Positions 1-60,436 of a stretch of 64,000 nt of DNA are shown here, piece after piece (position 1 is the stretch's first letter; every line of letters starts with the position of its first letter). The stretch lies in NCBI GenBank assembly GCA_013368325.1, contig JAACJK010000060.1, positions 124,001-188,000 of the forward strand, read 5' to 3'. The stretch is from Ephemerocybe angulata. Its lineage: Eukaryota; Basidiomycota; Agaricomycetes; Agaricales; Psathyrellaceae. The notes below the pieces were generated by a model. That model was not told where the DNA came from. It made no database searches and worked only from the letters and a program-made list of their open reading frames with translations. A program made the position numbers and the translations under genes.

Positions 1-360
1 TGCCGATGGTCCACACGGTGCTCTGGAAGGTTGAGAGCCATCTTTTGCAATTTCCGCAGTACCACCCGTATTTTATGTCCCGCTGCTCGAGGCGCTCGCT
101 GAGCGTGTCGATGAGGTCTCTCGTCGAGAGGCTGGCTATGATATCTCGTCGTTCGAGGGCCGAGTCGTCTTGGAAGCTGCGGCGCGCATGGATCTCTCGC
201 GCGTCAACCTGAAGGAAATGTCAGTAAGACTGAAAAGTGTAGTTATGCATTCTGGCGCGGAGACGCGTATCGTACGTACGTCGTCGGTGAAGTGAGCGTT
301 TGCAAGAGACGCGAGTGTGCCAAGGGCGACGGGGAGGAGGGCGAGGAGGGGGACGCGCAT
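1..360 (-). CDS. Secreted STREL/zinc-finger-like peptide, member 1 (3' end cut by window edge)
   Basis: First of eleven family loci. Exon 1 (360-280) encodes a signal peptide starting MRVPLLALLPVALG and ending ANA-HFTDD. The intron (279-209, 71 nt) runs GTACGT to CAG with a CTGAC branch-like site. Exon 2 (208 downward) carries the helix LSTRDLIDTLSERLEQR and then WYCGNC, the first two ligands of the finger-like module. A donor GTGTGG after C-x10 is possible near position 14; the third exon lies outside the window. The start was chosen because it opens a signal peptide and splices in frame. Lost relative to relatives: the dibasic site is Gln-Arg here. Upstream DNA is homologous to the promoter of the 43.9-kb member. 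Confidence 0.8.
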
Positions 361-439
361 TATTCTCTTTTTGTTCCTGCTGCGTGTGGGAATAATCAAG
401 GGAAAAGGCGGGGGTGGGATGGGTAGAATATGGTATGGA

Positions 440-985
440 GCCGGGAAAGCGGGGAACTATATATGCTACGGGATATGGCACGGGCTGATATAGCCGTTCA
501 AGTTGACATGGGTATCAGAGATCACTCCATCCGCGCTCTCGGTAGCGCATGGATTATTTCTCCAAATCGGACCCTTGATGAGAAGATTGACCTGGTTGCA
601 GTTCTTGGATTCTTACAGGGTGGAGTCTGGACATCTTTGCCCAGGGCATATATATGTAACCTCGGCAAGATTCAAATTGACACGGATATCAGAGTTCACT
701 CCATCCAGCTCCATCCGCGCTCTGGGTAGCGGATGGGAGCGCATGGCTTATTTCTTCGAGTGGGACGCGATTGGGACGCGACGTTCCGTTGTATGCGATG
801 CCCAAGGTGCATTTGATGTCGAGTTGGCTATGTACCCATGCGCAAGAGCGGCACGGTCTCTGTGATTGGCAATCCGATCGCATACGGGTATCGGCGCATG
901 CGCCAATCACTGTTGAAAGATGTGAGGTCACCCTGGAAACGAAATTTCCGGGATTTCCGCCGGATGAGCTGGATAAAACTCAGGT
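440..985. repeat. Duplicated promoter block, related to 43.38-43.85 kb
   Basis: In reverse complement this block matches the DNA just upstream of the 43,875 start: shared stretches include the run around 'cgcggatggagtga' and the later 'ggatttccgggattt'-like segment. One subunit occurs twice inside the block (about 490-560 and 665-735). Open frames exist in both copies, but differences between copies are almost all non-synonymous, so I read it as non-coding regulatory DNA duplicated along with the gene. A TATATA sits at 463-468, about 100 bp from the start at 360. Confidence 0.6.
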
Positions 986-1050
986 ATGGATATAATCTAA
1001 GCCGAAAGTCCTGGTGCCAACTTGCTCTCCCAGAAACACATACTGCTGAC
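975..1050 (+). promoter_or_regulatory. Orphan peptide-gene promoter relic
   Basis: The segment with 'actcaggtatggatataa' followed by 'gtcctggtgccaactt' and 'cccagaaacacat' closely matches 53,925-53,985, the TATA box and 5' leader of the 54.0-kb peptide gene. No signal peptide or STREL frame follows here, so the promoter has outlived its gene. The rest of 1,050-1,940 holds no gene I can support. Confidence 0.5.
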
Positions 1051-1943
1051 CTTTACCCATGGTGACTAGATTGGGTTGGAGAAAGTTAAGCATGCCCGGG
1101 TGATATGGTAAGTAAGAAGAAGTTCTACTCGACACGCGAATGCCGCTGACACAGAGAACCTGCCACGGGCGCCTATTTCATATGATCGAAGATATGAGCA
1201 GCGGCGATATATTATAGATATATTGCTGAGGTCCTCTGAAGAGCTGTAATCGAATAGATACGAGCAACATCACTTGAATGGGTGGAGCTCCATCGGGGCG
1301 TATGAGTTCGGGCGGTGTTCGTATTGCAACACAGGGGACCATCTCATCGAAATCGTCTCTGGGATTAATCATTAGGGTGATCGATCCCGCTCCTGCAATG
1401 ATATCGGTTTATTGTCCAATGTTCATCGTGATTGTAGGGAGCCCATAACCATGAGAAACGCTGAGGAAGGGAGGAGCGTATTCGAGCAAGGGATGGAGAC
1501 ACCGGGATCCCCTCCAGCCTTTCCCTTGATTGTAAAGCGTGTAATTTATCCGCGATTTGCACTGGAGGCTAGGCGCATTATGTGAGGCTTAGACTGGCTT
1601 AGAGGACCTCAATTATTCCCTCTGGAAGTCTTGACAATCCTAAATATCTAACCCTGTTGTCCAATTCGCAGCGAGGCGCTCGAGAACCTGGGAATGTGGA
1701 CCACGAGACGGCATAGGGGCCGCGATCAATCAATTTACCATGTTCATCAATGGCCTGCCTTTCTCCCGACGTCGACCTTGCGCCGACCCCACCCAACGCA
1801 CATCCTTCTTCTGCCCATGCGCCGAGTCTACACCTCATCTCTGGGCTCGTACCACCTACCGATGAGAGGACGATGCGACACAATCGGTCTCCGTTGACTC
1901 CACCGTTGACTCCAGGCGCGCGGAAGAACACGGCGATGGACGG

Positions 1944-3441
1944 TTGAGCGTCCTCAGCAAGGACATCGGCATCCTCGCCCGCGATATCCACTCGGAAAGC
2001 GTGAAGAACTTTGCTCCGGAATGTTATCCCATGAACCTCCCCGCCACTCGCAGGTTACTCAGTCAGCATGCAACGACTATCACCACCACAGCGGAGATTA
2101 GCCAGTTCAGCTATCTTCATGAACAGCAGTACCCGCGTTGGAACCCTTATGCTGCAGGTGGTAGAAAGGGTTAGGAAGGAGGGCGATATCACAGGGAAGG
2201 AAGCTAGAAGAATGAGGATGGGATTGGGACCACGGAGGATGTGCGGTTCGACCGGTGAGCACTTGTTTTGTACTTCACCCCCATCCTATCTGGTCTCGTC
2301 TATTCCATCCTTATTCGAGGCACGCTTCGTCGTTAACAGACCTTTTTCTCCTACTCGACACCTCGCCAAGGCGAATGAATGTTCTCGTCCGCGCACTTGA
2401 CTCCGCATGTTCTCCCTCCTCTCGTTCGTTCGATCCATCCCTCCACAGCGTACTGACTCCTCCCTCCAGCGGCTTCATCTCCCCATACCTTGTCGCGTAC
2501 GTCAAGGTGTCGAGGGTCGAGTTCGAGAAACTCCTCAACCTCGAAGGTCTCGCTCCTTCAAGACATCGTCCCCGCGCTCGTTGTACGACACGCCCCTCCG
2601 CAGCATCCTTGAGGAGGTCAATGGCGCCGGGCGAAGGCTTCTAATCTCAACAAGCTGCGCGTTCATTGAAGCCCACGATCCTTACTGGTGGATCTTCACA
2701 GATGAGCTGGAGGTGAACCTCGAGAAGGCAATGGCCGACCGCCTCAGTTCCACTGGCTCTGTGCCGATCAAGAAACGAAGGACGGCACGATCCGCTCACT
2801 CGTCGCCGACTCGACGTGCTCAGATTACGATCGCTCGAAGCTCCAGGAACTCCTTGCGAAGCTTAGCGGGGGTGTCGCCGTCATCAAGGTCGGAGGTGCG
2901 AGTGAAGTCGAGGTTGGGGAGAAGAAGGATCGGTTTGATGACGCACTCGACGCTACGCGTGCGGCGGTGGAGGAGGGCATTCTGCCTGGAGGAGGTGTGG
3001 CGCTTCTCAAAGCGAGTTTGCAGTTGGCTACGACGAGTGCGGGGAATGCGAGTACGCCTGCTGCGAAGGACGCTGCGCGCGACTACGAACTTCGACCAGG
3101 AGCTCGGCGTCGCTATCATCCGTCGGGCCATCACGAACCCCGCGCGCACGATATACAAGAACGCCGGCGAAGAGACCTCCGTCATCGTGGGGAGGATCCT
3201 CAGTGAGTATGGAGTGGAGGGGAAGTTCAATTGGGAGTATGATGCGGGTAAGGGCGAGTATGTGGATATGGTGGAGAGGGGGGTCGTGGATCCGTTGAAG
3301 GTTGTGCGGACGGCGCTTGTGGGTGCGGCGGGCGTGGCGAGTCTTTTGACTACTAGTGAGGCATCCGTTGTGGAGGCGGCTGAGGAGGAGGGTGCGAAAG
3401 GGCCGGCGGGGATGGGAGGGTGGGAGGGTTTTGAGGGGTGA
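1944..3441 (+). pseudogene. Broken mitochondrial HSP60 chaperonin copy 1
   Basis: Several frames in succession give pieces of a group I chaperonin: LARDIHSESVKN and HATTITTTAEI (about 1,970-2,105), STRVGTL then VVERV.KEG (2,125-2,185), VRFDR just before an intron, [13 protein letters not shown] after it (about 2,470), [12 protein letters not shown] (2,695), [20 protein letters not shown] (2,860-2,920), [15 protein letters not shown] (2,970), [20 protein letters not shown] (3,105-3,165) and a long C-terminus [20 protein letters not shown] to a stop at 3,441. Frame changes separate these blocks and the N-terminal third is missing. Active HSP60 folds proteins in the mitochondrial matrix; this copy cannot encode it. 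It lies tail to tail with copy 2. Confidence 0.85.
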
Positions 3442-3444
3442 ATG

Positions 3445-5980
3445 AGTAAGGGGTTGTTGTGGGGTGGATATAGGGAGGGGTGTTAGCTCGTTCGTTCGTT
3501 CGTTTGCTCCGCTTCGTCCACTTGCGCTTTCGACTTTGACCCTTGACCTTGAACTTTAGTGTAAAAGTACCATCTTGGCTGCTCGTCGTAATCCTGCACA
3601 TTTCCATCTCGTTCTCATTCGCTGCATACATACATGCATCGCCTTATCGGTTCCTCTGACTCCATTGTATCATGTAGACTTAATTCGTTCGGTATAATAC
3701 ATCCCCACTCTGATTTGATTCGTGATGTTTGAGGTGTGAGGTGTGAGGGGTCGAAGTTGACTTGAGGCTGTTGAGCTGCCTTGAGGTGATGTGAAGGTAT
3801 GAGAGGGTTGGGTTGGCGATTGCGAGCGAGCGAGCGAGGGATCCGGAGGATGTGGAGGTTTGTTTACTCGAGTGGTTAGATGTATCTGGGCGTTAGGAAG
3901 CAGTGTGTGATTGGGGGATATTATGGTTGGGTGGTGAGGGTCGGGAATCGTGCCAACACAGTCTCTTAGCTCTCAGATAGCGCCCAAAGTGCTACGAACA
4001 CAACCGGCGTCCTGTGACAAGTGCCCGAGGACTTCAAAAAGGCCCTCGGTGATCGGCGACCCCGTTGCACAGTTGCGTACTATCGGCGCTTGCGCCGATC
4101 CTTGTTGAAAAATTGGATGTGATGATTGGCAGTACCATATGATATAGGGCCGTATCCCACATCCCGCGTATGTGCTTTATTTCAACCTGCTGGCATACCT
4201 GATAGTCCCAATTCAGTATGAGGATCGGGTACGTCATATCGCTTTGTATTACATACCTATTCCAGTCTATTCTCGGTTGTGAGCCCTCCGCTTCGTATGG
4301 GCCTGTCAGCATCGGAGGAAGAGCGGAGACCGACGGTAGCGCCTAATTTAGCGCCCAACATACCTAAAAATGTTAATGACCTAGTGCAGCTGCGTCTGTG
4401 GAAGCATACTTCCAGAGTTTGAGAAATGCATTTTTCAAAGGATATTCCGCTGGTCGAAATCCAGAACCCTCGCCAATATACCTATTTACAGTCACAGTAC
4501 GGTTGATTGATGAACTATTTTTGGCGGGTAACTCAAGGGGTAACGACGACCACCCTGGAGCGAAGTGTCTATTCTGATGTATTTATGGCAGTGGTACTAC
4601 ACAATTTGTCCATCTTGCCCAATGGACTCGTTTCTGAAATATTTCAATTACTAGCCCCCTTACGTGACCTTGCTGTGCTTGTTGGCAATGGCATCCGGAT
4701 CGAACGCTTGGGTTTGGGACCCTCAGATTTTTCCTATGCACTCTCATGCGGAGCAGGTTCATATTTCATTCAGATTAGTAGTCGAAAATAGCATGAACGA
4801 AGGCGGTATTGGAGAACGCCTATGATCGACTATGGAAGGTACTGCTAGAAATAACTGATTTATTCTTGATTTCGAGCATAGCTCGGGGGGTACGCGGTGC
4901 CCTCCCCCTGTGTTTGTGGAAAATAGCCGCCACCACAGAGCTACCCACTTCCTATCGAGAGGTTCCCACCAAGCCGTCATCCATGAGCCCCTATTCACCC
5001 CCATCGCGACTAGCCAGCCTCGAGTCCAAACAGAGCCAACATCTGTTCAAGCGCATTGTTGGATCTCGTCTTTACCCCACACTCGATACCGCACATGTTC
5101 ATGTTCCTCTCGAATCTTCTACGCTCAGGGAATTATCACCACATCCGGGTGACCAATACGGCTGTGGCTGCGTACCGCAGCCCTCTCTACGCAGCCACTG
5201 GCCTCTCTACCCTGTCGGACCGATCTTCATGCTACCGACATTCCTACACCTCGGAACTCCCAGCCCCAACCTCCCCTTGAAAACGTCGAACGCCATCCAA
5301 CCCTTCAGAACCGACGAGAAACATACTTACCGATCGCCATCCCACATATCGCTCATCCCCGGTAACTCAAGAACCTTAAGTATTGGGAATCTTTGCGACA
5401 GGTATAACCAAGGTCGAATTGGATGAACATACTCGACAGCACGGGGAGGGTTCGCCTTAACCTTTCCCTGTGAACCTATCGTTGATTTCAAATTCAAGTC
5501 GTAGCTGAGTCATGCTCGGGTAGTAAAATTAGATGGGAGCTCGCAAGACGTTACGCAGTTCAAGTTTGGTGCCATGCTTCAGTCTACAAAGTATAGGTTC
5601 TTGCTCTCTATGTACCCACGTACCTTGGAGGGGCCAATCAGAAACGCAAACTTGTCCAAACTTCATCGGAACCCGACTTTAATTAGTTCGAATGAGTGCG
5701 AACTTGGTGCGAACCCGGCGTGTCAGCATCATGAATCATGATGTGCCGGTGCCCATACCATGCCAGCTGTCATTGGGCTGTCCAAACTCTATATGTACCT
5801 CCTTAGTACCATGAGCGGCTATTCATTTGTCGTCCCTGCTCTGATATGAGGCGTCATCGGCACGAACCGAATGGTCTATGGCGTCGAGTCGCGGCCTGCT
5901 CCTTCCCAACTCCCTCCCACTCCCCACTTCCCCCGCCAGGCCAGTTTTGAACCTCTCAACCATCCAAACCACCACTCGTC
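3445..5980. other. Gene-poor intergenic region with diverged repeats
   Basis: No gene supported. About 3,990-4,150 is a diverged relative of 23,870-24,010 (shared 'acaaccggcg'-like and 'tatcggcgcttg' stretches), and about 4,960-5,110 is a diverged relative of 27,830-27,990 (shared 'gaggttccc', 'gcccctattcaccc' and 'ccccacactcgatac'-type stretches). The 205-residue open frame at 4,809-5,426 overlaps the second repeat and shows no recognisable domain. Confidence 0.5.
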
Positions 5981-6004
5981 TAGTCCTTGCTTTCTGGATG
6001 GCCC

Positions 6005-7570: not shown

Positions 7571-7944
7571 AACATGTAATAGCTTCCCCATCTCGATCCC
7601 TAATCTGTCGTCGTATTTTACCTCTGTCAATACTCAATAATACCTCTCTGCCTTGCTCTGTTTGATCAGGATGCGAGAGTTGTTCTTTTCCCTTAGCCCT
7701 TCCGCTAGTGGTACTGGATTTTCGAACATTCAATCGACATACTAAAAGAAACAGAGTGGGGGTGTATCACTACTAGCATGAAAGCGAAGTTGTACGAACG
7801 GAATGCGCAAATTACGCCCAACTGAAGCTAGTGGTACGTTTACTCTATGAGGCAGGCACGTTGCAGAGGCCCGTCCAATAAACGGATCGCGAACGTTCGA
7901 GCGAGCGGGCCAGACCACGTCTCACATACCTAATACCCACCCAT
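7571..7944. other. 3' flank of membrane-protein gene
   Basis: Short intergenic stretch with no coding signal, between the membrane-protein stop codon and the 3' end of the inverted HSP60 relic. Confidence 0.5.
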
Positions 7945-9665
7945 CCCTCCCATACCCCCATCCCCGCAAGCCCCTTCGCACCCCCTCAAAACACACGCCT
8001 CACTCGTCATCAACAAGCTCGCAGACCCGCCGCATCCACAAGCGCTGCCCTCACCACCTTGAGCGGATCCACAGTCCCCGCAGCGACCCTATCGACCTAC
8101 TCTCCCTTCCCCGCATCATACCGCCAATTAAACGTGCCCTCCACCCCGTACTCGCAGTATGAGCTCGAGGACGACGCTCCATTCTTCCTCGGCATTCTTG
8201 TACATCGTGCGCCTGGGGTTCGTAATGGCGCGACGGATGATGGCGACGCCGAGCTCCTAATCGAAGTTCGTTGGGATAGGCGTAGCGTCCACAGCGAGAG
8301 GCACCGAAGCGTTCCCAGCGTTCGTTGCAGGGCTTGTAGTCGCCAGTTGGCGCCTTCAACGACCCCACCTCCTGCAAGGACCCCGATCCGCAACGAGCGA
8401 GCGGATCTGTTCCCCCCACGCCTGGATATCACGTCGAGTCCGTCCTTCTTGCTCTCGCCGTCCAGATTGATGAATCGCCCCGGAGCCAGTCGAGCTGAGG
8501 AGGTCGACCGTCGCCGTCTCGAGCCTCGCCTCGAGCTCATCCGTGAGGACCGTTCGCCCTTGAGGCTGGACCTTGACGTCCGCGACGAAATAGGGAGAGA
8601 TGAAGCCACTGTAGAGAGAGTCAGAATGTGGTCGAGAGTGAATGGAGGGAGGAACGACAGATGACAGCAGACTGCGGCGGTCTACGGGCCATCGACGAAC
8701 ACGAAATGCGAAAGCGCGAAAGGGCGGTATACCCCAGCTGCCGAAGTGATGGGCGGAATGGAAGAACGAAATCGTATCGACGCCTAACGCGGTACGGCTC
8801 AACGAGGGGTAGGCGATGTGCAGGACATGAGCCAACGGCTCGTGTCATCGGCCCTTCCGGAAGCCGAGAAACGAAAACAAGCGATGGGTACGCGCTCGAT
8901 AGGTGAGATGAGATAACAGCAGGATGGAAGGCATCGATAATCATCATTCACCAGCAATTCTCTTCGGGGACGATGTGTCGTTCCCTCACGAGCGAGCTTC
9001 ACGTCGAAAAAGGAAGACACAAACAAAAGCGAAGAGTAGAGAGCGTGCAGTGCGAATCGACTGATGACGAATCGACTCGCCGGTGAATGGGGTGCGGATA
9101 GAGAAAGTGGAACACCACGAGCGAAAAGAGGAGAACTAGAACGAGCAAACGAAGGTGAAGGGATGAGGGGTACTCACCTGAGGTTGAGGTGCATGCCCCC
9201 CGATGACCTCTATATCGTCCTCAATCGTGCGCCGCTCCATCAACATAGTCACACCCTTCTTCCAGGCCTTCTCCGTCGCCTGCGCAATGAGGTTCACGAC
9301 ATTGGTATCGCCGTTCTCCTAGATGCCTAGGAGTAGGTGGCGCAGGCGACGACGGCGGCGAGTATCCTGCAATCTCCGGCGATCCCGTTCGCCTTGGCGG
9401 CGGTATCCTGGATGAGGTGCACGCCAAGGTTCTCGAACCTGGCTTTGAGCGTGATACTCTTTGCGACCATGAGACCGACTGTGAAAGAGCGAGGGTGAAG
9501 TGCAATACGCGTGTATACAGGGAACACGACGTACCTTTGGTGACCTTGTGAGGCAGAACGACTGCTCGATGATAACGTTGCGTCCTACAGAGCAGGTCAG
9601 TACGCTAGAATAGAGTAAGAAACAGTGCTACACGTACCTTTGGGGCCGAGGGTATCAGCCCGCTA
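7945..9665 (-). pseudogene. Broken mitochondrial HSP60 chaperonin copy 2
   Basis: On the minus strand the order is N to C: TLGPKG just before an intron (about 9,650), GRNVIIEQ (9,590), VAKSITLKARFENLGVHLIQD (9,480-9,415, 21 residues in the frame), a GD-rich loop remnant (9,370), NLIAQATEKAWKKGV (9,290) and RRTIEDDIEV (9,225), an intron, GFISPYFVADVKV (8,600), LTDELEARLETA (8,540), YGVEGTFNWRYDAGKGE (8,150-8,100), and DPLKVVRAALVDAAG (8,070) with stops after it. A Gly-Met-rich tail like that of HSP60 is visible to about 7,945. Frameshifts are numerous. The 5' end stops abruptly at about 9,665. It keeps more of the N-terminus than copy 1, so the two are separate decayed copies and not halves of one gene. 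Confidence 0.8.
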
Positions 9666-15980: not shown

Positions 15981-15984
15981 GGAG

Positions 15985-22436: not shown

Positions 22437-22896
22437 TCAACGGCGCCCAGGCTTGGGTCCTGGTGCGCCATGCGCCACCCTCCTATGCACGGTGACCTAT
22501 TGCGACAGAGATAATGTTAGTGGATTGGGTTACGGCTCTCATAACAGTACAACGACTCACATCGTAGGGGAGGTTACCGACAAAATTACAGCCGGCAACG
22601 GTACATAAGAACCGTCCTCTGCGCGCCAGGCGGTCTTCGAGCTCATCGAGAAGGTCCCGGGTCGCGATGTCTTCTAGTACCTCGCGACGCTCAAGCGTAT
22701 AATCGTCGAATCCTCGGGAGCTGAGATCGTCGACATATTCCCTAGCCTCATTCGTGTGCTGAAGGGGATTTTGGAGGGAGGTGATCAGTATAAGGGGCGG
22801 GGCTAGTCACAGGGAGCTGCGTACGTCGTGGTGGGCACTGGCGAAGGATGCCAGGGAGAGTGCGATGGGGAGAAGGGTAATGAAGGAAAGACGCAT
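22437..22896 (-). CDS. Secreted peptide with near-canonical C2H2 finger, STREL family member 2
   Basis: Exons 22896-22825, 22758-22561, 22496-22437; both introns phase 0; 109 residues. Signal peptide MRLSFITLLPIALSL..ASA followed by HHD at the exon end. Exon 2: HTNEAREYVDDL, a charged segment with LERREVLEDI, then ATRDLLDELEDRLARR and FLCTVAGC. Exon 3 opens VTVHRRVAH and ends PGPKPGRR. Together the ligands are C-x4-C-x12-H-x4-H, exactly C2H2 spacing, with the intron inside the finger. The Leu-Ala-Arg-Arg before the finger would suit Kex2 cleavage. A canonical finger on a secreted protein is unusual, since C2H2 fingers normally act in nuclei. Function unknown. Confidence 0.85.
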
Positions 22897-25235: not shown

Positions 25236-25666
25236 ATGCATTTCCCTACCCTCCACCTTCTCTCTATTGTTGCGTCGCTCGCAGTACTTTCTAGGGCTTA
25301 CTCCGACGTGGGTCTCAGAAATAACCTACCCTTTTGAAGACTCCTCTCTAACACTGTTTCTAGGATGTGTTTGAAGCACGCGATTATCTCGGCGAGCTCA
25401 GCACCCGCACCGACGCGGTCTTGTCCAGCCTCTCCACGCGCGAGCTCATAGCCGAGCTCTCTGAGCGCCTCGATCGCCGCAAGGAGGACAGGAGCACCAA
25501 ATTTGAGTGTACAAAGTGTCTCGCCATAAGCAAGACCGGGGTACGTACATTGAACCATCTTGGTATGGGATATACAATTTATTCACGTATCTGCGCTTAG
25601 GCGAAGTCCAAGACCTGCCCGAAAAGTTCGGATGGTTGGCACAGTTGGGCCAAAACAAGCAAGTAG
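25236..25666 (+). CDS. Secreted STREL/zinc-finger-like peptide, member 3
   Basis: Exons 25236-25307, 25364-25540, 25601-25666; 104 residues; introns of 56 and 60 nt, both phase 0. Signal peptide starts MHFPTLHLLSIVAS and ends SRAYSD, so the usual His after cleavage is Tyr here. Exon 2: DVFEARDYLGELSTR, SSLSTRELIAELSERLDRRK, then FECTKCLAISKTG. Exon 3: AKSKTCPKSSDGWHSWAKTS. Ligand pattern C-x2-C-x12-C-x7-H. Its leader, exon 1 and exon 2 are closely related to the loci at 41.4 and 60.2 kb and it is the intact copy of that subgroup. A TATATAA lies upstream at about 25,151. Confidence 0.85.
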
Positions 25667-26960: not shown

Positions 26961-27093
26961 GCTGAACCAGATGTGGATTCAATCTCCAGAACCCAACGAC
27001 CAGCTCTCAATCCTCACTTAAGCAAATCAGTAACTACCGTCTTCAGTCGCTACCTACAATATCCTCCTCAACATCTAGTCTCACAGTAGTGCC

Positions 27094-33704: not shown

Positions 33705-34022
33705 TCAGTAAGCCCCTACGTCGCCGTCCAGACCGCAGGTGACACCTGGAACCGCGTGTGGGAGTTTAGATGCGAAATCGAGATACATGTAGGCCCACAT
33801 ACCAGTGCGGCAAAGCGTGTTTCGCTTGTCGATCGCCTCTACGGTAGAGCTACCGTCGCGAGTCTCGGCGAGTGTGTCCCACATAGTTGTGCCGATTTCT
33901 TCACTTGAGTCGAGATTGGCAATAAGGAATCCGGTCTTGGACCTCGTGGGGAGCGCGCTAGTGAGGGTAGTGCTGAGATAGAAGGCCCCGATGGTAGTCG
34001 TGGCGAGGATATTGAAGCGCAT
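33705..34022 (-). CDS. Small secreted protein, single exon
   Basis: 105 residues. Starts MRFNILATTTIGAFYLSTTL with cleavage expected after TSALP or TSA; the rest is hydrophilic, with DSSEEIGTTMWDTLAETRDG, an EAIDKRNTLC segment holding a Lys-Arg site, and only two cysteines (NTLCRTG and VTCGLDG). A TATAAA lies about 90 bp upstream (minus strand, near 34,110). Not related to the STREL family. I do not recognise it; a secreted effector-like protein is a reasonable guess. Confidence 0.55.
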   Translation of the reverse strand: MRFNILATTTIGAFYLSTTLTSALPTRSKTGFLIANLDSSEEIGTTMWDTLAETRDGSSTVEAIDKRNTLCRTGMWAYMYLDFASKLPHAVPGVTCGLDGDVGAY

Positions 34023-41169: not shown

Positions 41170-41755
41170 ATGGCTTTGGGATTCGCCCTCCCTACGCTCC
41201 GCTGGGTCATACACGCATTTTATATCCTGAGATTTTCGAAGCAGAAGAATGAGGTTCACGTCCACATCGCCAAGGGAAATCCTCGTCTCCGTCAGCCTTG
41301 CAGAGCCGAGATCGCTCAACACTTCCAAAGCAGTGGGATCACGATCGAGGATGTCCTTGCTTACTCCAATGTGAGTTTCAAGAACACCTGCCCCAAACTT
41401 TTCAAGACTGTTCCCTAACGCGAATTGCTCCAGGATGCATTTGAAGCACGCAATGATTATATCGACGAGCTCAGCACCCGCACCGACGCGAGCTTATCCA
41501 GCCTCTCCACGCGCGAGATCATAGCCGAGCTCTCTGAGCGCCTCTATCGCCGCAGGTTGGACACCGAGACGAAGTATGAGTGTACAAAGTGTCTCGCCAC
41601 AAGCAAGACTGGAGTACGTACAAGTTACAGTTAACTATCTTGGAACGGGATATATAATTTATTCACAAATATGCATTGGCATCACATAGCCAAAGATCAA
41701 GACCTGCCCGCAAAGTCGAAGTGGGTTCGACAGCTGGGCCGAAAAGAGCAAGTAG
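41170..41755 (+). CDS. STREL family member 4 with a foreign first exon (chimera)
   Basis: Exons 41170-41370, 41434-41613, 41690-41755; phase-0 introns; about 148 residues. Exons 2 and 3 are standard: DAFEARNDYIDELSTR, SLSTREIIAELSERLYRRR, YECTKCLATSKTG, then PKIKTCPQSRSGFDSWAEKS, in which the His ligand is replaced by Asp. Exon 1 matches the family only in its last codons (AYSN); upstream of about 41,357 the usual leader and signal exon are replaced by unrelated DNA. From 41,170 this still encodes a hydrophobic start, MALGFALPTLRWVIHAFYIL, which could act as a signal or anchor. It lies at the left end of the inverted duplication, so the join is probably the duplication breakpoint. Confidence 0.6.
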
Positions 41756-41765
41756 AGAAGATGGG

Positions 41766-42085
41766 TGAAGGGAACGCGATCGGGCTAAAGACCGATCACG
41801 TCACCATCGCGTTTGGGCGCTAGAGAGAGGCTCCCTATCTGTATCCAGTCGGCGTTCCGTTAGGTTCTCCGGACTCTCTAGATAGCGGCTAGCTTTCGAT
41901 TCGATTCTTTAGGTACTTTCCCGCATGTAGCTCACCCTCCATCGTCCCTATTCCCTCTCCTTCGCACAACAAGCCTATGTTACTCGTGGCCCCATATACG
42001 GCGAGCTAATACGTGAGTGATTGAGTTGTGATTGAGGACGGAATTCCGAGTCCCCTTCGCACCTAGACGCATCATTACACCTTCA
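41766..42085 (-). mobile_element. Solo LTR (left arm)
   Basis: On the minus strand begins TGAAGGTGTAATGATGCGTC and ends GCGTTCCCTTCA, so it has TG...CA ends. The same ends occur in the right-arm copy and, more diverged, in the two 276-bp repeats at 46.5 and 47.7 kb. It begins 10 bp after the member-4 stop codon and has no clear target duplication. Confidence 0.6.
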
Positions 42086-42626
42086 TGGTTGGTTTTCAAA
42101 TACACCATAGAAGCCATTAGAGCATCTAGTGGTGGGATGCAAGGAATGTGGGTAGTCATCGGGATACACCCAAGTTATCTAACTCACTGGGTGCGAAGTA
42201 CTGTATCCTACTCACACGTATGATTTATAGGGGCTTTGACTGTAAGCCTCTCCCCGCCGACTTCTAAGCATCGGGCAAAGTGAATTTGATCAATCGTTTC
42301 TCCCAGAATCAGGGTGCGCTGATACGCCGATGTCCGATACAGCGATGAACAGTATATAGCATGTGCAAGGCTACGGGGATCGACCACAGGCTAGACAGAA
42401 AATTATATAAAGTCGGGAATAAGTGGAGTCCTGAGAGAGTGTACAGAAGATAGGCGGATCGGTTGACTATAATAGTTCCCCCATACTACACACAGTCTCA
42501 TAGGCAGCCCCCCGGACTAATGCTTATGCTTTCCGGTCTCAATAGTGTAAGGCCACCAGTTGGAGTCCTGCAAGAGTGCAGTGCAGATCGGTTGTTCCCC
42601 CATGATGATTACAGTCGCAGCCAACA

Positions 42627-43154
42627 CTAATGCCTCCTGTTTCCAACGAGGTTAGGGATCCAGTCGTGCGCCATTCCATCTTTACACGGGTCGGCGCCTG
42701 CGGGCTAAGAAATAAAATAAGGGTTAATTCATCATCATTCGATATGCCACAGTGCGTGGCGGAGGAATGCGGTGGACCCGCGAGCGACGTACCGGTTTGA
42801 TATTCTCGTACCTGCCGCAGTTTTTACATAACCACGCCTTCTGATGGCTGTTCTCCCGCCGCTCGAGACGCTCGGAGAGCTCGGTTATGAGCTCGCGCGT
42901 CGAGAGATCTGCGAGGGCCTCTTGGCGCATGTAGATGTCGAGGATTTCACGAGCAGCGAGGTCTTCTGCCCTGCGAGCGTTGAGGGAGTTCTAAAGGTAG
43001 GATTTTGGAGCGGGACGTGGATTGAGTGAGAATGACCTTCCACAGGATGGATGCATAGCGGAGACACTACACTCACAGTGTGGACGTTGTGACCTTGGAC
43101 CATAGTGGCAAGGAAGAGTGCGGCAGGCGCAAGGGTGAGGTGTGAGAGAAGCAT
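42627..43154 (-). CDS. Secreted STREL/zinc-finger-like peptide, member 5
   Basis: Exons 43154-43077, 42990-42793, 42704-42627; introns 86 and 88 nt, phase 0; 117 residues. Signal peptide MLLSHLTLAPAALFLATMVQ-G, mature start HNVHT. Exon 2: NSLNARRAEDLAAREILDIY, ADLSTRELITELSERLERR, WLCKNCGRYENIKP. Exon 3: PAGADPCKDGMAHDW and a GNRRH end. Ligands C-x2-C-x13-C-x5-H. The acceptor TTCTTAG was chosen over the nearby CCCGCAG because the latter breaks the frame. TATATAA lies about 80 bp upstream. It is divergent to member 6, 720 bp apart, and nearly identical to member 10 in the other arm. Confidence 0.85.
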
Positions 43155-43374
43155 AGCTTGGGCTGTGAGGCTCGGATAGGAGTGGAGTGATAAGTGCAAT
43201 GGCTTTGGACGCTGAAGCTAGGGGCCATTTATATAGCTTGCATCCGGTAGGGAACTTCCCACCCATTTTGATGGGTATTCATATTCAGCGAATGAGGCTG
43301 TAAATTCCCATCGGGGTGCGATAATCGGGAATGCGGTCGTTGAGGAATTGTGGACGTGTCACTGTATCGATCGA

Positions 43375-43874: not shown

Positions 43875-44352
43875 ATGCGCGTGCCTTTATTCACTCTTTT
43901 GTCCTGCGCTCTCTCTTTGGCATCGTATGTCGTTGCCCACGGTGACGTATGTACTATATATGCATGAATAACACTCCTCATATCTAATGGACTCTTATGG
44001 ACGCGTCCAGCACACCTTTGAAGCTAGGGAGGCCATCGACGCGGTCCTCGCCGAGCGTGGACTCTACGAGAACGACCTCAGCGTTCGAGAACTGTTGACC
44101 GACGTCAGCACCCGAGAGCTCCTCGACGCGCTCAGCGATCGGCTGGAAGCTAGGGGTTTCATTTGCCATTTTCCCGGTTGCGAAGGGATAATCTTTCCTA
44201 GCACTCAAGCGGTAAGTTCAAGTTACTCCACGCATCGTAGAAATAGTTATTCGGGAGTACTCACCCCTCGATTATAGCTCTCTGCCCACAGGCGCAGGGC
44301 TCACACCCAGCCCATCCCCACCCCAAAGCCCAAGCCTCGCCCTTACCAGTAG
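43875..44352 (+). CDS. Secreted peptide with canonical C2H2 finger, STREL family member 6
   Basis: Exons 43875-43946, 44011-44211, 44278-44352; introns of 64 and 66 nt, phase 0; 115 residues. Signal MRVPLFTLLSCALSLASYVV-A, then HGD and HTFEAREAIDAV. The helix is DVSTRELLDALSDRLEAR, here lacking the dibasic pair. The finger is FICHFPGCEGIIFPSTQA joined to LSAHRRRAHT: C-x4-C-x4-F-x5-L-x2-H-x4-H, which has the ligands and both core hydrophobic residues of a classical C2H2 finger. The tail is PTPKPKPRPYQ. The acceptor GATTATAG was chosen because the later CCCACAG leads to a long non-matching frame. This member makes the origin of the whole family's C-terminal module clear. Confidence 0.88.
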
Positions 44353-46493: not shown

Positions 46494-46495
46494 GT

Positions 46496-47943
46496 TGAAG
46501 GCGCAACGATGCGTCTGAGTGCGAAGGGGGTTCGGGCCTCGTTGTCGACAACTCACGTAGCAAGTAGTGTAGAGAAAATAGATGTATTCTGGCGCAGAGA
46601 GGGAATCGGAAGGAGGGTGGTGAGCTACATGGGGGGAGGAAGCTAAGGAACGAAACGGAACGATCGAGACATAAAAAAACATATCGGAAAGCTCCGAAAC
46701 TCCGACATAGGGGTACCCATGATCTAAATGAGGTGACGTGATCGGCGCGTACGCTGGTCGCGTTCCCTACATCTCCCAGGAACTTCTCGTACTGACCCTA
46801 GGTCAGTGCGACACTTGCGAGTCTTGATAGCGAAGTCGTAGTCGAGTCTTGATCTTCAGCACAAAACCGCCCTATCGATGCGTATCTTCTGACGACTTGA
46901 GGCTACGGCTCGGGGCTTCGAACGAGGATGCGACGCCGATACGCGATGCGACTTGAAGGTGCCCACGGATCGTGGACTAGAGTTGGCGAGGAAATGATGG
47001 ATGCGGGAAAGAGGGATGGAGTCGACGCTGGAACGTGGGGTGACTGCTGGACAATGTCGCTGGGATGGTGCCGTGTTGGAGACCTTGCTGGTCGCAGAAG
47101 CATTCGGAGGACGATGGTAGTGGTAGGCGACGTGGTGTGGAGCGAATAAACAAACGAGACGTGGTACGAATGGTGAACGAGACGAGGATGCAACCCCCAG
47201 GCACACGGGCCCGGTCGTAGGTTGCCGATGACGAGACGAGACGATAGTGCGACCCCCAGGCTCACGGGCTCCGGACGTAGGCCGCCGATAACGAAACGAG
47301 ACGCCGAGTAAACTGAATCCCCATGCCTCAACTGTTGGGCATGGCCGACTACTCCAGGCAGCTACCGTGACTATCAGGGACTCGTAAGTTTGACTAGCCG
47401 GGCAGTACTGAGCTGGGCGCTGAGAATTGAACGTGGTGGAGGTGTGCGGCGAGCGATGCGATGCGATGCGACGAGCGTGATGAGGCTTGAGGCCGGAAGT
47501 GGGAACGGCGAGCGATAGGGGTAGGCAGCGACGGCAATGGTTGGGACTCCAGATCCGGGGTTGCGATAGACGGAGCGGTGAAGGAATGAGTGGGAAGAAG
47601 TACGACGTACGAGCCAGAGGTGAGTGTCTCGAACAAAGGATGGAACCCCCTCGCGGTGGGCTCCAGTTGAAGGCGCAACGATGCGTCTGAGTGCGAAGGG
47701 GGTTCGGGCCTCGTTGTCGACAACTCACGTAGCAAGTAGTGTAGAGAAAATAGATGTATTCTGGCGCAGAGAGGGAATCGGAAGGAGGGTGGTGAGCTAC
47801 ATGGGGGGAGGAAGCTAAGGAACGAAACGGAACGATCGAGACATAAAAAAACATATCGGAAAGCTCCGAAACTCCGACATAGGGGTACCCATGATCTAAA
47901 TGAGGTGACGTGATCGGCGCGTACGCTGGTCGCGTTCCCTACA
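46496..47943. mobile_element. Small LTR element (TRIM-like)
   Basis: Two direct repeats of 276 bp, 46,496-46,771 and 47,668-47,943, appear identical and start TGAAGGCGCAACGATGCG and end TTCCCTACA. The whole is flanked by GCGT on both sides, a possible 4-bp target duplication. Only about 0.9 kb lies between them and holds no gag or pol frame, so this would be a non-autonomous miniature LTR retrotransposon. The 332-residue minus-strand frame across it has no recognisable domain. Identity of the two repeats implies recent insertion. Confidence 0.65.
47185..47310. repeat. Two tandem units of about 65 bp
   Basis: The word CCCCCAGGC[AT]CACGGGC followed by a GTAGG..GCCGAT..CGA.ACGAGACG stretch occurs twice in a row inside the small LTR element. 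Confidence 0.6.
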
Positions 47944-48464: not shown

Positions 48465-48971
48465 ATGCGTCTTTCACTTCTTTCTCTGATTCCCATTGCT
48501 GCATCGCTATTCACCTATGTGAGCGCACACTATGACGTACGTGTACGCTCACTGGCCCTCATGCTATTCGAGCTGACACTCAGGCTAGGACTCCTTTGAA
48601 GCCAGGGAGTATGTCGACGAGGTTGTTGTGACACGAAGTTTTGATGATTCCCTGGAACTTCGGGAGGTTCTCTCCGGGATCACCTCCAGGAAACTGCTTG
48701 ATGAGCTCAGCGAGCGGCTGGAGCGTAGGGAGTGGGTTGTATGCCCGGGATGTCAGAAGGTCATCGGAAAGGGGGGTCTATGGTCGCAGACAATGGGGGT
48801 GCGTGTATCACAAGGTTATGGCGTAAATGACTAGCTAATCATGCTCATGCTCTCTAGCGGTATTTTCATAACTTGAAATGCCAACGAATACACGAACTCA
48901 AGGTTGAAATTATCCGCAAAAAATGGGGTACCCCGCTGACTGCCGCTCCCTCTGTCCCGACCAACAAATGA
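48465..48971 (+). CDS. Secreted STREL/zinc-finger-like peptide, member 7
   Basis: Exons 48465-48536, 48589-48798, 48858-48971; introns 52 and 59 nt, phase 0; 131 residues, the longest intact member. Signal MRLSLLSLIPIAASLFTYVS-A, then HYD. Exon 2: DSFEAREYVDEVV, GITSRKLLDELSERLERREW, VVCPGCQKVIGKGGLWSQTM. Exon 3: RYFHNLKCQRIHELKV, a longer tail ending APSVPTNK. Ligands C-x2-C-x22-C-x3-H, with an extra His (FHNL). The Arg-Arg before the finger is kept. The helix motif reads TSRKLL instead of STREL. Confidence 0.85.
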
Positions 48972-49124: not shown

Positions 49125-49496
49125 CTAGGGTGGGCAAGTACATCGGATGCCGTGGTTCCCTAAACAATGCGGGTTCTTGCAAGCCATGCTGCCATGGTCT
49201 GAAAAGCACCAGCCGGTTTTCCCACCACAGTGGGCAATCTCAATCTCCGAGCGCTGAAAAAAGCCCATTCGTCAGTAACCTTCCTTGCCCGTGATACAGA
49301 AACAAAGACCGAGAGGACCGCAGCTTACCCTATAGAGATTGCCGAACTCGTCCTCCATGAGGTCGCGTTGGAGGAGACCGAGGGCACGAGCGTGGATGTC
49401 ATCGTCGCCGAGGTCCATGATGTTTTCTGCTACTGTCTGAGTAGCGGCAAAGGCGAGAATAATGGAGAAGATGGAGGAGATAGAGGTGAGCTGCAT
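49125..49496 (-). CDS. Kex2-type prepropeptide, six-cysteine peptide B
   Basis: Exons 49496-49329 and 49253-49125, one 75-nt phase-0 intron, 98 residues. The pre-pro part is almost the same as in peptide A: MQLTSISSIFSIILAFAATQ, ENIMDLGDDDIHARAL, RDLMEDEFGNLYR, and again Arg-Arg is formed across the splice junction. The mature part is very different, RSEIEIAHCGGKTGWCF onward, ending GIRCTCPP, yet the cysteines stay aligned: C-x6-C-x8-C-x4-C-x7-C-x-C. Promoter, leader and intron are also conserved with A. Such constant pre-pro and variable mature sequence is typical of secreted peptides under diversifying selection. Confidence 0.85.
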
Positions 49497-50194
49497 GGCG
49501 CTACTGTGATGTTGTAGGTGGCGATTGGGAAGGTAGTGGTCGCTGATTTGCTTAAGTGAGGGTTGAGAGCTGGTCCTTGGGTTCTGGAGAGATTGAGTCC
49601 ACCTTTGGTTCAGCTTTATACGCTACGCTAGATTTCCGGATCAGCCCATCCGACCCGAACATTTACGTACATGTACATTCTCAGTGATATACATAGGCGA
49701 CCAGAAGAGCCTTCATACCCGTACATGTCCGATCTACCGAGTAGGGACACGATCCGTCGAGCTTAGGTAAAGGCCGAACCCAACAGGAAAATGTGTGAGG
49801 TCTTGAATACCTGGTATGTACCATGCGACTACACACGTAACGCGCACGGCCGGTATACACGATAAAATAATGAAGCACTCCCAAAATAGAACCCCGAAAT
49901 TTGTATGCTCCGTACGTATTGGTCGGGTTTCATGGTTCGAGGACGGATACTACGATCATAGCTCCCCTGACCTCACTATTCAGAGTTCGAGTTTGGTTCT
50001 CCGAGTGTGAAGAACGAGACGGCAGCCCTATCGTGTCCATGGCGGGTGAGGTCGCCATACTCGGGCTGCTCGGCTGAAACCCCCTTGATAGGCCCCGCAC
50101 AACACATATATGACTATAAACTGGAGGCGCTATAATAGTACAATCCTACTCCCAGAAATACTTCACATTCCCCTCGAACGTTACTATTTACACA
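49497..50194. other. Region between divergent peptide genes
   Basis: Contains the conserved leader and TATAAA (minus strand, about 49,616-49,621) of peptide B and the AT-rich promoter of member 8. No further gene. Confidence 0.45.
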
Positions 50195-50639
50195 ATGCGA
50201 TTGTCGCTTTCCACCCTCCTGACTGTCGCCATCTCTCTGGTGTCGATCGTCAATGCCCATCAGGATGTACGTCCAACTTTTGAGTGAAGCTGGCTCTGAG
50301 CGCTGATTTTTGAACAACATATCTGTGTAGCACACCCTTGATGCTAGGGACTACGTTGACGATCTGATCGCACGCAAAGAGTCATACGATGCTCTGGAGC
50401 GTCGTGAGCTCTTCATCTCAACCCGCGAGCTCTTCGACGAGCTTTCCGACCGCCTCGAGCGCCGTACAAACAAGTGGACGTGCTATTATTGCAAGGGTGG
50501 ATTCGCTAACGAGGTATGTGAAACCATTCATTGCCAGAGAGAATTGCGAACTGACGGAAATTGATACTAGGCAGAAGCAACAAAGACAAGATGTAGGAGC
50601 AGTGATTCCTGGGACCACAAGCATTGGGTGCATTTGTAA
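50195..50639 (+). CDS. Secreted STREL/zinc-finger-like peptide, member 8
   Basis: Exons 50195-50266, 50331-50513, 50571-50639; introns 64 and 57 nt, phase 0; 107 residues. Signal MRLSLSTLLTVAISLVSIVN-A, then HQD. Exon 2: HTLDARDYVDDLIARKESY, ALERRELF, ISTRELFDELSDRLERR, WTCYYCKGGFANE. Exon 3: AEATKTRCRSSDSWDHKHW. The first half keeps the C-x2-C-x3-F of C2H2 fingers; ligands continue C-x14-C with His pairs behind. Two Arg-Arg sites. Sister of member 9, 3.8 kb away in the same orientation, with near-identical signal peptides and similar leaders. Confidence 0.87.
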
Positions 50640-53990: not shown

Positions 53991-54030
53991 CCCCCTCCAA
54001 CATCACCTCTACAACCCCTCTACTTACACA

Positions 54031-54547
54031 ATGCGAGTATCTCTCCCCACCCTTCTTTCCGTCGCCATCTCTTTGGTGTCGATCGTCAATGCCCATCAAG
54101 ACGTAAGTCCCACACCTGAGTCAAGCTGGCTCTGAGCGCTGATTCGACACCATCTGTTCTTCAGCACACGCTTGAAGCTAGGGAGTACATCGACGAGCTG
54201 ATCGCACGCGAAGAAGCCTATAATGCTCTCGAGCGCCGTGATCTCTTCGCCGACATCTCAACCCGTGAGCTCATCGACGAGCTCTCCGACCGTTTCGAGC
54301 GCCGTGCAGGCAACAACCTTAAGCTTTACCAATGCGATTACTGCCACCAGTCATTCGATTCAGAGGTAAGTTTACCCACCCCATTCGCAAACTGAAATCA
54401 TTCAGTGCTAAGTAGAGAGAATGGCGAACTGATGTCGGGCATTGATACTAGGAGCATGCGAGAAAGGATGCGAAAAAGTTTCCATGTTCGAACTCGCAGT
54501 CGAAAGATGGGAAGCATAAGGTCAAACCCACCCCAAAGCCTTTCTGA
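54031..54547 (+). CDS. Secreted STREL/zinc-finger-like peptide, member 9
   Basis: Exons 54031-54102, 54165-54365, 54452-54547; introns 62 and 86 nt, phase 0; 122 residues. Signal MRVSLPTLLSVAISLVSIVN-A, then HQD. Exon 2: HTLEAREYIDELIAREEAY, ALERRDLFADI, STRELIDELSDRFERR, YQCDYCHQSFDSE. Exon 3: EHARKDAKKFPCSNSQSKDG and a KPTPKPF end. The segment YQCDYCHQSF is the classical first half of a C2H2 finger; the second half has drifted to Cys plus His (C-x18-C-x10-H). The P-K-P tail matches members 2 and 6. Confidence 0.88.
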
Positions 54548-56340: not shown

Positions 56341-56404
56341 CGAACATCGAGCGGTGATCCTCACAGTCAATGGCGAACACCCGTCTCGTCAGTGTCGCCA
56401 GCCC

Positions 56405-57340: not shown

Positions 57341-57577
57341 TGTGGGTGATTGGTCGATCGCAGGGTGCAGCTCGTCGACGACACGGTTGATTGGCGGCGA
57401 CGAGGATCCTCGGGGTCGCGCGAGGGGTCCGGGTAGGCTGTGGTTTAGATTTAGTGAGGTGCAATGGACTCCAGGATAGGCGAAAGCTTTCGCTTCAATG
57501 TAATGCTTGCTGCAGCGCTAAGTCGGTCTACGAGGGCGTCAAGGCGCGAAACACAATCGGGATAGACGTACCCTTAC

Positions 57578-58015: not shown

Positions 58016-58579
58016 AGGTACTGTAGAACAGCATGTCGCGGTTCAAATTCCTCTCAGATACCGACCCTATGCGCCCTTGAGTAACTGTATGACGGATGGT
58101 CGGACAGGTTCGATGATAACCTCTGATCCTGCCGGGCCGTGGGTATGGTATGTGGGAAGTAACCTGGGCGGTAGCACAGTGGCACGCGTGACCGCATTGG
58201 CGCTTCCGCCGATATCACTGCGTATATCAATGCAATGCCAATGCGGCAGAGATGCGAGCTCAGAGGTCCTGTGGTGTAAGTTCCGAATGGAATAGTGACG
58301 CTAGAAAATGAATGATAACAATAATGATAATCCCCAGGGTTGGGGGATTATCGACACTCCGATGGGAATTTGGGAAATATGACATTGTCAGTCCGGGAGT
58401 GAGACCCAATCTAATCTTAGAACAGTGAAGACCGAGCCTCATTCGCCGAATATGAATACCCATTGAAATGGGTGGGAAGTTCCCTACCGGATGCAAGCTA
58501 TATAAATGGCCCCTAGCTTCGTCGTCCAAAGCCATTACACTTATCACCCCACTCCTATCCGAGCCTCACAGCCCAAGCT

Positions 58580-59126
58580 ATGCGTCTCTCACACCTCACC
58601 CTTGCGCCTGCCGCACTCTTCCTTGCCACTTTGGTCCAAGGTCACAACGTCCACACTGTGAGTGTAGTGTCTCCGCTATGCATCCATCCTGTGGAAGGAC
58701 ATTCTCACTCAATCCACGTCCGCTCCAAAATCCTACCTTTAGAACTCCCACAACGCTCGCGGGGCAGAAGACCTCGCTGCTCGTGAAATCCTCGACATCT
58801 ACATGCGCCAAGAGGCCCTCGCAGATCTCTCGACGCGCGAGCTCATAACCGAGCTCTCCGAGCGTCTCGAGCGGCGGAACAACAGCCATCAGATGGCGTG
58901 GTTATGTAAAAACTGCGGCAGGTACGAGAATATCAAACCGGTACGTCGCTCGCCCGTCCACCGCATTCCTCCGGCACGCACTGTGGCACATCGAATGATG
59001 ATGAATCGCGAGTCACGACGGACAGCTAACTCTTATTTTATTTCTTAGCCCGCAGGCGTCGACCCGTGTGTAGATGGAAAGCCGCACGACTGGACCCCTA
59101 ACATCGTTGGAAACAGGAGGCGTTAG
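58580..59126 (+). CDS. Secreted STREL/zinc-finger-like peptide, member 10
   Basis: Exons 58580-58657, 58743-58940, 59049-59126; introns 85 and 108 nt, phase 0; 117 residues. Almost the same as member 5: MRLSHLTLAPAALFLATLVQ-G, HNVHT, AREILDIYMRQEALADLS, STRELITELSERLERR, WLCKNCGRYENIKP, then PAGVDPCVDGKPHDW and a GNRRR end. Ligands C-x2-C-x13-C-x5-H. Several replacements between the two copies lie in exon 3. TATATAAA at 58,498-58,505 is 75-80 bp before the start. It is the right-arm partner of the duplication. Confidence 0.87.
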
Positions 59127-59670
59127 TGTTGGCTGCGACTGTAATCATCATGGGGGAACGACCGATCTGCTCTGCACTCTTGCAGGCCTCCAACTGGTGG
59201 CCTTACACTATTGAGACCGCCGGAAGGCATAGCATTAGTCCGGGGGGCTGGCTGTGAGACTGTGTGTAGTATGGGGGAACTATTATAGTCAACCAATCTG
59301 CCTATGTTCTGTACACTCTCTCAGGACTCCACTTATTCCCGACTTTATATAATTTTCTGTCTAGCCTGTGGTCGATCCCCGTAGCCTTGCACATGCTACA
59401 TACTGTTCATCGCTGTATCGGACATCGGCGTATCAGCCCACCCTGATGCTGGGAGAAACGATTCATCAAATTCACTTTGCCTGATGCTTAGAAGTCGGCG
59501 GGGAGAGGCTTTCAGTCAAACCCCCTATAAATCATACGTGTGAGTAGGATACAGTACTTCGCACCCACTGAGTTAGATAACTTGGGTGTATCCCGATGAC
59601 TACCCAACATTCCTTGCCTCCCACCACTAGATGCTCTAATGGCTTCTATGGCCTATTTGAAAACTAACCA
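59127..59670. other. Spacer inside right arm
   Basis: No gene; matches 42,086-42,626 in reverse. Confidence 0.5.
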
Positions 59671-59979
59671 TGAAGGCGTAATGATGCGTCTAGGTGCGAA
59701 GGGGACTCGGAATTCCGTCCTCAATCACTCACTTATTAGCTCGCCGTAAGTGGGGCCACGAGTAACATAGGCTTGTTGTGCGAAGGAGAGGGAATAGGGA
59801 CGATGGAGGGTGAGCTACATGCGGGAAAGTACCTAAAGAATCGAATCGAAAGCTAGCCGCTATCTAGAGAGTCCGGAGAACCTAACGGAACGCCGACTGG
59901 ATACAGATAGGGAGCCTCTCTCTAGCGCCCAAACGCGATGGTGACGTGATCGGTCTTTAGCCCGATCGCGTTCCCTTCA
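59671..59979 (+). mobile_element. Solo LTR (right arm)
   Basis: Begins TGAAGGCGTAATGATGCGTC and ends GCGTTCCCTTCA. It occupies the same place as the LTR in the left arm, so it was inserted before the duplication. Related to the 276-bp LTRs at 46.5 and 47.7 kb. Confidence 0.6.
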
Positions 59980-59989
59980 CCCATCTTCT

Positions 59990-60436
59990 CTACTTGCTCT
60001 TTTCGGCCCAGCTGTCGAACCCACTTCGACTTTGCGGGCAGGTCTTGATCTTTGGCTATGTGATGCCAATGCATATTTGTGAATAAATTATATATCCTGT
60101 TCCAAGATAGTTAACTGTAACTTGTACGTACTCCAGTCTTGCTTGTGGCGAGACACTTTGTACACTCATACTTCGTCTCGGTGTCCAACTTGCGGCGATA
60201 GAGGCGCTCAGAGAGCTCGGCTATGATCTCGCGCGTGGAGAGGCTGGATAAGCTCGCGTCGGTGCGGGTGCTGAGCTCGTCGATATAATCATTGCGTGTT
60301 TCAAATACATCCTGGAGCAAGTCGCGTTAGGGAACAGTCTTGAAAAGTTCAAGGCAGGTGTTCTTGAAACTCACATTGGAGTAAGCCCTAGATAGTACTG
60401 CAAGGGACGCAACAGTAGAAAGGAGGTGAAATACAT
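59990..60436 (-). pseudogene. STREL family member 11, frameshifted signal exon
   Basis: Exons 60436-60375, 60311-60132, 60055-59990 by alignment to members 3 and 4. Exon 2 is intact (DVFETRNDYIDELSTR, STREIIAELSERLYRRK, YECTKCLATSKTG) and so is exon 3. In exon 1 about ten bases are missing relative to member 3, so the ATG at 60,436 reads out of frame with the conserved VASLAVLSRAYSN end, and no other in-frame ATG is present upstream. It therefore seems unable to make a secreted product unless an unseen upstream exon exists. Confidence 0.75.

Follow-up and report, generated by a model that had tools for sequence, protein, structure and literature searches.

C2H2 zinc fingers are known mainly from nuclear proteins, and the protease Kex2 cuts at dibasic sites. 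Among secreted fungal proteins, the available part of one source describes AVR-Pii of Magnaporthe oryzae, whose ZiF fold has the ligands Cys51, Cys54, His67 and Cys69, that is, a C-x2-C-x12-H-x1-C spacing (PMC11213319). The available part of another describes cylindracin, or PRI3, of Cyclocybe, in which a signal peptide is followed by a part of isoelectric point (pI) 4.0 ending in Arg and by a basic, Cys-rich, antifungal C-terminal domain (PMC11532979). We analysed a stretch of 64,000 nucleotides of Ephemerocybe angulata DNA (assembly GCA_013368325.1, contig JAACJK010000060.1, positions 124,001 to 188,000), hereafter the window, in which an initial annotation had recognised a family of eleven related small genes; it is part of contig C196 in a genome of 58.67 Mb and 232 contigs. 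Our tentative proposal, held at a little short of an even chance, is that these genes belong to a large family of secreted prepropeptides, each yielding a basic, metal-folded and diversifying peptide, likeliest for defence or competition. The gene layout, the many copies, the charges, the cut site and the divergence pattern are seen directly in the sequence, and the anatomy of the precursor is much surer than its biological role.

All eleven STREL-type exons of the window were re-found at their positions, each by a profile of the remaining members. With near-copies excluded from the profile, E values ranged from 2.3e-9 to 7.6e-23, and 30 control windows from a first-order Markov model yielded nothing below 1e-3, their best E being 0.0077. 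The STREL motif, announced as conserved, is so in most window members, and members 1, 2 and 7 have variant forms. A family of eleven loci, however, is far too small an estimate: exon 2 of member 9, compared with the whole genome, gave at least 150 scored matches from 231 candidates among the matches listed, the weakest at E 0.0017. A second exon-2 query gave 77 matches at E ≤ 1e-5, nearly all coinciding with places found by the first. Since members 1, 3, 4 and 11 of the window's eleven fell outside the 150 listed matches of the member 9 query, the true copy number is probably above 150.

The places analysed here are a part of these, picked by score: 84 loci and the window together gave 122 exon-2 matches, 108 of them distinct in sequence, at 106 places in the genome (11 in the window and 95 outside). 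Gene models were called automatically from scored splice signals, intron and exon lengths and a hydrophobic start, and share a layout of signal exon, phase-0 intron, pro exon, phase-0 intron and last exon. By distinct sequence, a signal exon was called in 98 of 108 cases, a last exon in 96, and both with two phase-0 introns in 81; by place, the corresponding counts are 96, 95 and 80 of 106. Both full-layout counts include a spurious signal exon of member 4, and the phase counts depend on the caller, which sought intron 1 in phase 0 only and gave phase 0 a bonus for intron 2. A ligand pattern stands in frame in the last exon of 59 of the 81 models. The other two frames have it in 8 and 11 models, and 200 residue shuffles gave it in 28.0 on average and in 37 at most. 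Three models were dropped (that of member 4, one of locus L051 with a wrong start, and one exact-duplicate or core-pattern-less model), leaving a curated set of 78 to which the counts below refer. The L051 frame starting at 914 (+) has a tandemly repeated pro-region, with EEYVDDLSLRETNTDVLADISTRDLISELSERLERR occurring twice.

The two parts of the predicted propeptide carry opposite charges. Net charge is negative in the pro-region of all 78 models (mean -4.5) and positive in the mature part of 75 (mean +4.5), and the two are negatively correlated (rho -0.36, p 0.0014, relatedness between models not removed). The pro-region ends in a dibasic site in 62 models and in a single basic residue in the other 16. 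Precursors mostly hold one module, placed after one dibasic site at the end of the pro-region; L040 and L027 have two, with, by eye, Arg-Lys between them in L040 and no dibasic pair in L027. As far as sequence features go, this is the plan of pro-antimicrobial peptides: an acidic pro-region, a cut site and a basic mature part.

A clear Cys pair is present in 73 models, as C-x2-C in 68 and C-x4-C in 5, and intron 2 falls 9 residues past the second Cys in 26 models and 7 residues past it in 19. Ligand typing, automatic at first and then corrected by eye in nine cases, assigned H..H to 25 models, C..H to 31 and no four-ligand set to 22. Clean H..H was found in 20 of the 73 Cys-pair models: eight have an x12 gap with H-x4/5-H, three an x12 gap with H-x6-H, and nine another first gap. 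Two fingers outside the window look like canonical C2H2: L033 reads LKCPHCPRQFVNPNN and, across the intron, LAAHIGEEH, and L051 reads LQCPHCFRRFVNPNN and, across the intron, LAAHIQEEH. Both match the Pfam zf-C2H2 model PF00096 (L051 at E 3.6e-5 and 24.4 bits, L033 at E 1.1e-4 and 22.9 bits; gathering cut-off 25.2), and L033 matches a solved Miz-1/ZBTB17 chain in PDB at E 1.2e-7, a value to which four fingers contribute, the strongest of them reaching only E 1.8 when taken singly. Two fingers are found in L040 and two C-C-C-H modules in L027, and a phase-0 intron interrupts every one of them. Among the models left unassigned by typing, L074 (frame starting at 1020, +) has C-x2-C-x12-H-x1-C in the same intron-split layout, and L010, L014 and L071 have a Cys directly after the His.

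Ligand type tracks a tree of the leaders, with 8 changes compared with 18.5 in shuffles (none of 500 as low), on a tree of few columns in which 17 of 73 inner branches are starred. This tree favours neither C2H2 nor C-C-C-H as the earlier form, and the capture of a finger module behind a signal peptide, as the initial annotation has it, is a hypothetical origin. Exchange of last exons between genes was considered as the main source of variety and is not supported, because ligand type follows the leaders.

Divergence along the gene was followed in 82 pairs with similar pro-regions, which form 19 clusters. On average, identity is 0.93 over the final 36 bases of the pro-region and 0.73 over the first finger half, and it drops between the two in every one of the clusters. 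In 17 clusters (sign test, p 3.6e-4) the last exon is less conserved than intron 2, and in 14 (p 0.03) the first finger half is; intron 2 itself has a mean identity of 0.79 and is poorly conserved in many pairs. The pair L047/L037 has identities of 0.95 in the pro-region, 0.60 in the first finger half (shuffled level 0.58), 0.92 in the intron and 0.77 in the last exon. Such steps, placed at the predicted protease and splice sites, would not be expected of wrong exon ends. In most close pairs, identity in the 3' flank comes close to chance, with means of 0.56-0.59 for a shuffled level of 0.52, even beside a well-conserved intron 2; either the copied segments stop shortly after the last exon, or leader and intron are homogenised by gene conversion.

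Substitution rates were estimated in pairs chosen for a mature-part identity of at least 0.45 or 0.5, a choice that favours conserved pairs, and four models with a doubtful last exon were left out. Over 14 alignable, gene-disjoint pairs, one of which (L036/L071) spans different clades, the ratio of non-synonymous to synonymous differences per site (pN/pS) takes values of 0.36 for the leader and 0.83 for the mature part, whose pS values are similar (0.19 and 0.22, respectively); the non-synonymous excess of the mature part gives a Fisher p of 2e-9 on pooled counts. The rate ratio omega, over 33 overlapping pairs, is 0.32 in the leader (95% interval 0.27-0.38) and 0.63 in the mature part (0.51-0.79). 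By these comparisons the mature part is evolving faster than the leader at the protein level. Local hypermutation is not supported: pS is alike in the two parts of alignable pairs, and the codons of the first two Cys differ (TGC/TGT) in 16 of 88 comparisons (18%), when 11% of intron 2 differs in the same pairs and leader pS is 19%. A signal of near-saturated synonymous change in the mature part, seen in 108 pairs after excluding nine of the 81 models without the core pattern and then one exact duplicate, came mostly from poorly alignable pairs and was set aside.

Taken as a precursor, the gene product would be directed into the secretory pathway by the signal peptide of exon 1. The acidic, probably helical pro-region of exon 2, typically ending in ..RLERR, would neutralise the basic C-terminal part until a Kex2-type protease cleaves past the dibasic site, releasing a mature peptide mostly of 25-70 residues. 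This peptide would fold round a metal ion held by the C-x2/4-C pair of exon 2 and the H..H or C..H pair of the last exon, and its sequence would diversify while leader and Cys pair are kept. Splicing, secretion, cleavage, metal binding and role are thus what we infer from the sequence. The peptides may act on other organisms in the substrate, as chemical defence or in competition. Pieces of a GH7 cellobiohydrolase, one of which matches many cellobiohydrolase chains, have nine matches in the genome, and pieces of a peroxidase, of unassigned class, have seven. Such genes are more in keeping with a decomposer of wood or litter than with a mycorrhizal partner, and on this basis defence or competition is favoured.

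A bolder reading, which is possible but which we hold with more doubt than the proposal above, is that an intron-split C2H2 finger has been turned into a hypervariable extracellular scaffold. It would comprise at least 150 copies of acidic pro-region and basic mature part, ligands changing between H..H and C..H from clade to clade, one ZiF-like case of H-x1-C, and finger exons open to tandem duplication. Such a scaffold would be a metal-folded counterpart of the disulfide-rich peptides of venoms and defence, of an undescribed kind. If true, it would reveal that peptide weapons or signals can be built on a scaffold of a new type, derived from a fold known chiefly in nuclear proteins, and would provide a large natural library of single-finger variants whose relatedness is known; the sharp change of divergence at the protease site leads to direct and inexpensive predictions that mass spectrometry and assays of metal binding and activity could address.

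Several observations weigh against these proposals. Fourteen different proteins were compared with Pfam and all stayed below its cut-offs, in their pro-regions too no model exceeded its cut-off, and NCBIfam gave nothing above cut-off for the three proteins tried. The secreted prepropeptides with an intron-split finger module of the initial annotation are supported, and find their stronger support outside the window, in L033, L051 and L040; the two window members it had cited as full fingers, 2 and 6, match no Pfam family at E ≤ 1. The 22 models with no four-ligand set may stem from errors in exon calling, from damaged genes or from a real loss of ligands. Under the oxidising conditions of the secretory pathway the C-x2-C pair may bond as a disulfide and not as a zinc site; the swap of His and Cys at a ligand position would favour metal, since His cannot form a disulfide. 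An AlphaFold model of exon 2 alone suggests a long helix over residues 15-43 at low confidence (predicted local distance difference test, pLDDT, 58.4; predicted template modelling score, pTM, 0.28). As for diversification, pN exceeds pS in the mature part of only 5 of the 14 pairs (and in the leader of none), and relaxed constraint fits too, because overall pN/pS and omega of the mature part stay below 1. Finally, the sequence itself holds no sign of antimicrobial activity.

Two other roles are unlikely, though each accounts for part of the data. A secreted single finger with basic flanks could make its way into other cells and work inside the nucleus or on DNA or RNA, as suggested by the C2H2 clades with basic tails (L033, L051, L067, L029) and by the basic mature part of 75 models. 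It also has a precedent in MoHTR1 and MoHTR2, secreted proteins which, in the available part of their description, enter the rice nucleus and carry a C2H2 finger with basic flanks like that of GAGA (PMC7672089). Against it, 31 of the 56 typed members are C-C-C-H and not C2H2. The recognition-helix residues of L033, N-P-N-N-L-A-A, are unlike those of a usual DNA reader, and the decomposer-like genes speak weakly against a living plant partner. Just as improbably, the peptides could serve the fungus itself, as signals or as labels by which hyphae, mates or nuclei recognise each other, with a diversity that provides specificity: the Kex2-type precursor layout, the conserved leader with a variable core and the many copies in a single genome all suit such a role, but at least 150 copies are many for a signal, and a basic charge combined with an acidic pro-region is commoner in toxic or defence peptides.

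Extracellular zinc binding, by scavengers or buffers, would account for a Cys pair and a second ligand pair that are found in one clade after another amid mostly variable positions; we regard it as very improbable, as it gives no reason for the fast change of non-ligand residues and 22 models have no assigned ligand set. Least probable of all is that the genes are artefacts or remains, short exons joined by eye, spread by transposable elements and mostly dead: transposon-like reading frames surround the loci (by eye), members 4 and 11 look broken, and some automatic exons are wrong (the signal exon of member 4, the last exon of member 10 and probably that of L059), but the leader omega of 0.32 (0.27-0.38), the in-frame ligand pattern and the steps in conservation that coincide with predicted splice and protease sites all speak against it.

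Turning to the window itself, the signal exon and phase-0 intron 1 attributed to all eleven members hold for nine and fail for members 4 and 11, and phase-0 intron 2 was called in ten, the exception being member 1. The latter (1-360, -) has its signal exon at 280-360, an intron at 209-279 and the pro exon with the first finger half from 208 downwards; its second donor is ambiguous, its last exon lies beyond the window edge and its ligand set is not settled. Ligands of the window members were counted by eye. The full C2H2 spacing reported for members 2 and 6 fits member 2 (22437-22896, -; signal exon 22825-22896, pro and finger-half exon 22561-22758, last exon 22437-22496), which reads C-x4-C-x12-H-x4-H. 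Member 6 (43875-44352, +; exons 43875-43946, 44011-44211 and 44278-44352) has H..H but, by eye, an x13 gap, C-x4-C-x13-H-x4-H. The C2H2-like first half C-x2-C-x3-F is indeed present in member 8 (50195-50639, +; exons 50195-50266, 50331-50513 and 50571-50639) and member 9 (54031-54547, +; exons 54031-54102, 54165-54365 and 54452-54547), followed in both, by eye, by a C..H second half.

The C-C-C-H pattern given for the rest stands for member 3 (25236-25666, +; exons 25236-25307, 25364-25540 and 25601-25666), with C-x2-C-x12-C-x7-H, and for member 5 (42627-43154, -; exons 43077-43154, 42793-42990 and 42627-42704), with C-x2-C-x14-C-x5-H. It also stands for the near-copy of member 5, member 10 (58580-59126, +; exons 58580-58657, 58743-58940 and 59049-59126), where the acceptor at 59046-59048, as in member 5, was preferred over the automatic choice. 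Member 7 (48465-48971, +; exons 48465-48536, 48589-48798 and 48858-48971) has a wide-spaced C-x2-C ... C-x3-H, and in members 4 and 11 an Asp replaces the last His of member 3. Member 4 (41434-41755, +) has exons at 41434-41613 and 41690-41755 and no signal exon at the homologous place; member 11 (59990-60436, -) has exons at 60132-60311 and 59990-60055 and a signal exon at 60436 that is, by eye, out of frame relative to member 3. Both are probably broken copies. An inverted duplication of about 1.95 kb (41359-43299 and 58435-60386, pieces 94-98% identical) bears members 4 and 5 in one arm and 10 and 11 in the other, and member 4 lies at its edge (piece 41359-42025 and 59720-60386, 98%), where the homologous signal exon would stand.

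The window also holds a second family of small secreted-looking precursors, at 27079-27483 (+) and 49272-49622 (-), which read MQLTSI..SIFS..LAFAATQT.AENIMDLGDDDIHARAL; it has six matches in the genome, five of them on the window's contig and two in the window. Another small secreted-looking frame at 33705-34028 (-) contains MRFNILATTTIGAFYLSTTLTSALPTRS. Identical direct repeats of 278 bases (46494-46771 and 47666-47943), 1172 bases apart, resemble transposon terminal repeats, and pieces at 2401-3482 and 7851-8681 resemble, by eye, a broken HSP60/chaperonin gene. Rfam and tRNA scans gave no matches.

The initial annotation knew of no described system of this kind. A literature search, with most subscription journals outside its reach, likewise found no paper on such a secreted split-finger family, but secreted zinc-finger proteins as such are already known, to judge from the available parts of two reports (PMC11213319, PMC7672089). 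The family appears to differ from these in its precursor, its number and mostly its ligand spacing and, because the comparison was made without any fungal protein database, we do not call it categorically new.

ZiF effectors are, like the peptides predicted here, small, secreted and diversified fungal proteins on one zinc-finger-like site, and the available text counts ten tribes of them (PMC11213319); the family has a dibasic pro-region and an intron that splits the finger, and its exon 2 gave 150 or more matches. In ligand spacing, the feature compared here, AVR-Pii is matched exactly by L074 only: the other 77 of 78 models are H..H, C..H or unassigned, and 74, those other than L074, L010, L014 and L071, have neither this spacing nor a Cys directly after the His. 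MoHTR1 and MoHTR2 are likewise secreted, with a basic-flanked C2H2 finger, but are specific to M. oryzae, and a pro-region, a split finger or a large family is not described for them in the part of the source available (PMC7672089). Of what defines such nuclear effectors, the present sequences display the signal peptide, the finger and the basic flanks. Cylindracin shares the plan of acidic pro-region and basic Cys-rich part but has eight conserved Cys, according to the accessible text (PMC11532979), where the family would have a four-ligand finger. The KEX2-processed repeat proteins (KEPs) of Agaricomycetes are also secreted precursors cut at Kex2 sites into peptides; as the available portion of their description has it, they contain several peptide cores (PMC9769878), whereas the family mostly has one C-terminal module and not several cores flanked by Kex2 sites. 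Classical C2H2 fingers (PF00096; Miz-1/ZBTB17) have spacing and aromatic or hydrophobic positions in common with L033 and L051, which score below the Pfam cut-off. Unlike them, the family's finger stands behind a signal peptide, is usually single, has a phase-0 intron between its Cys and His pairs, and has many relatives with other ligands.

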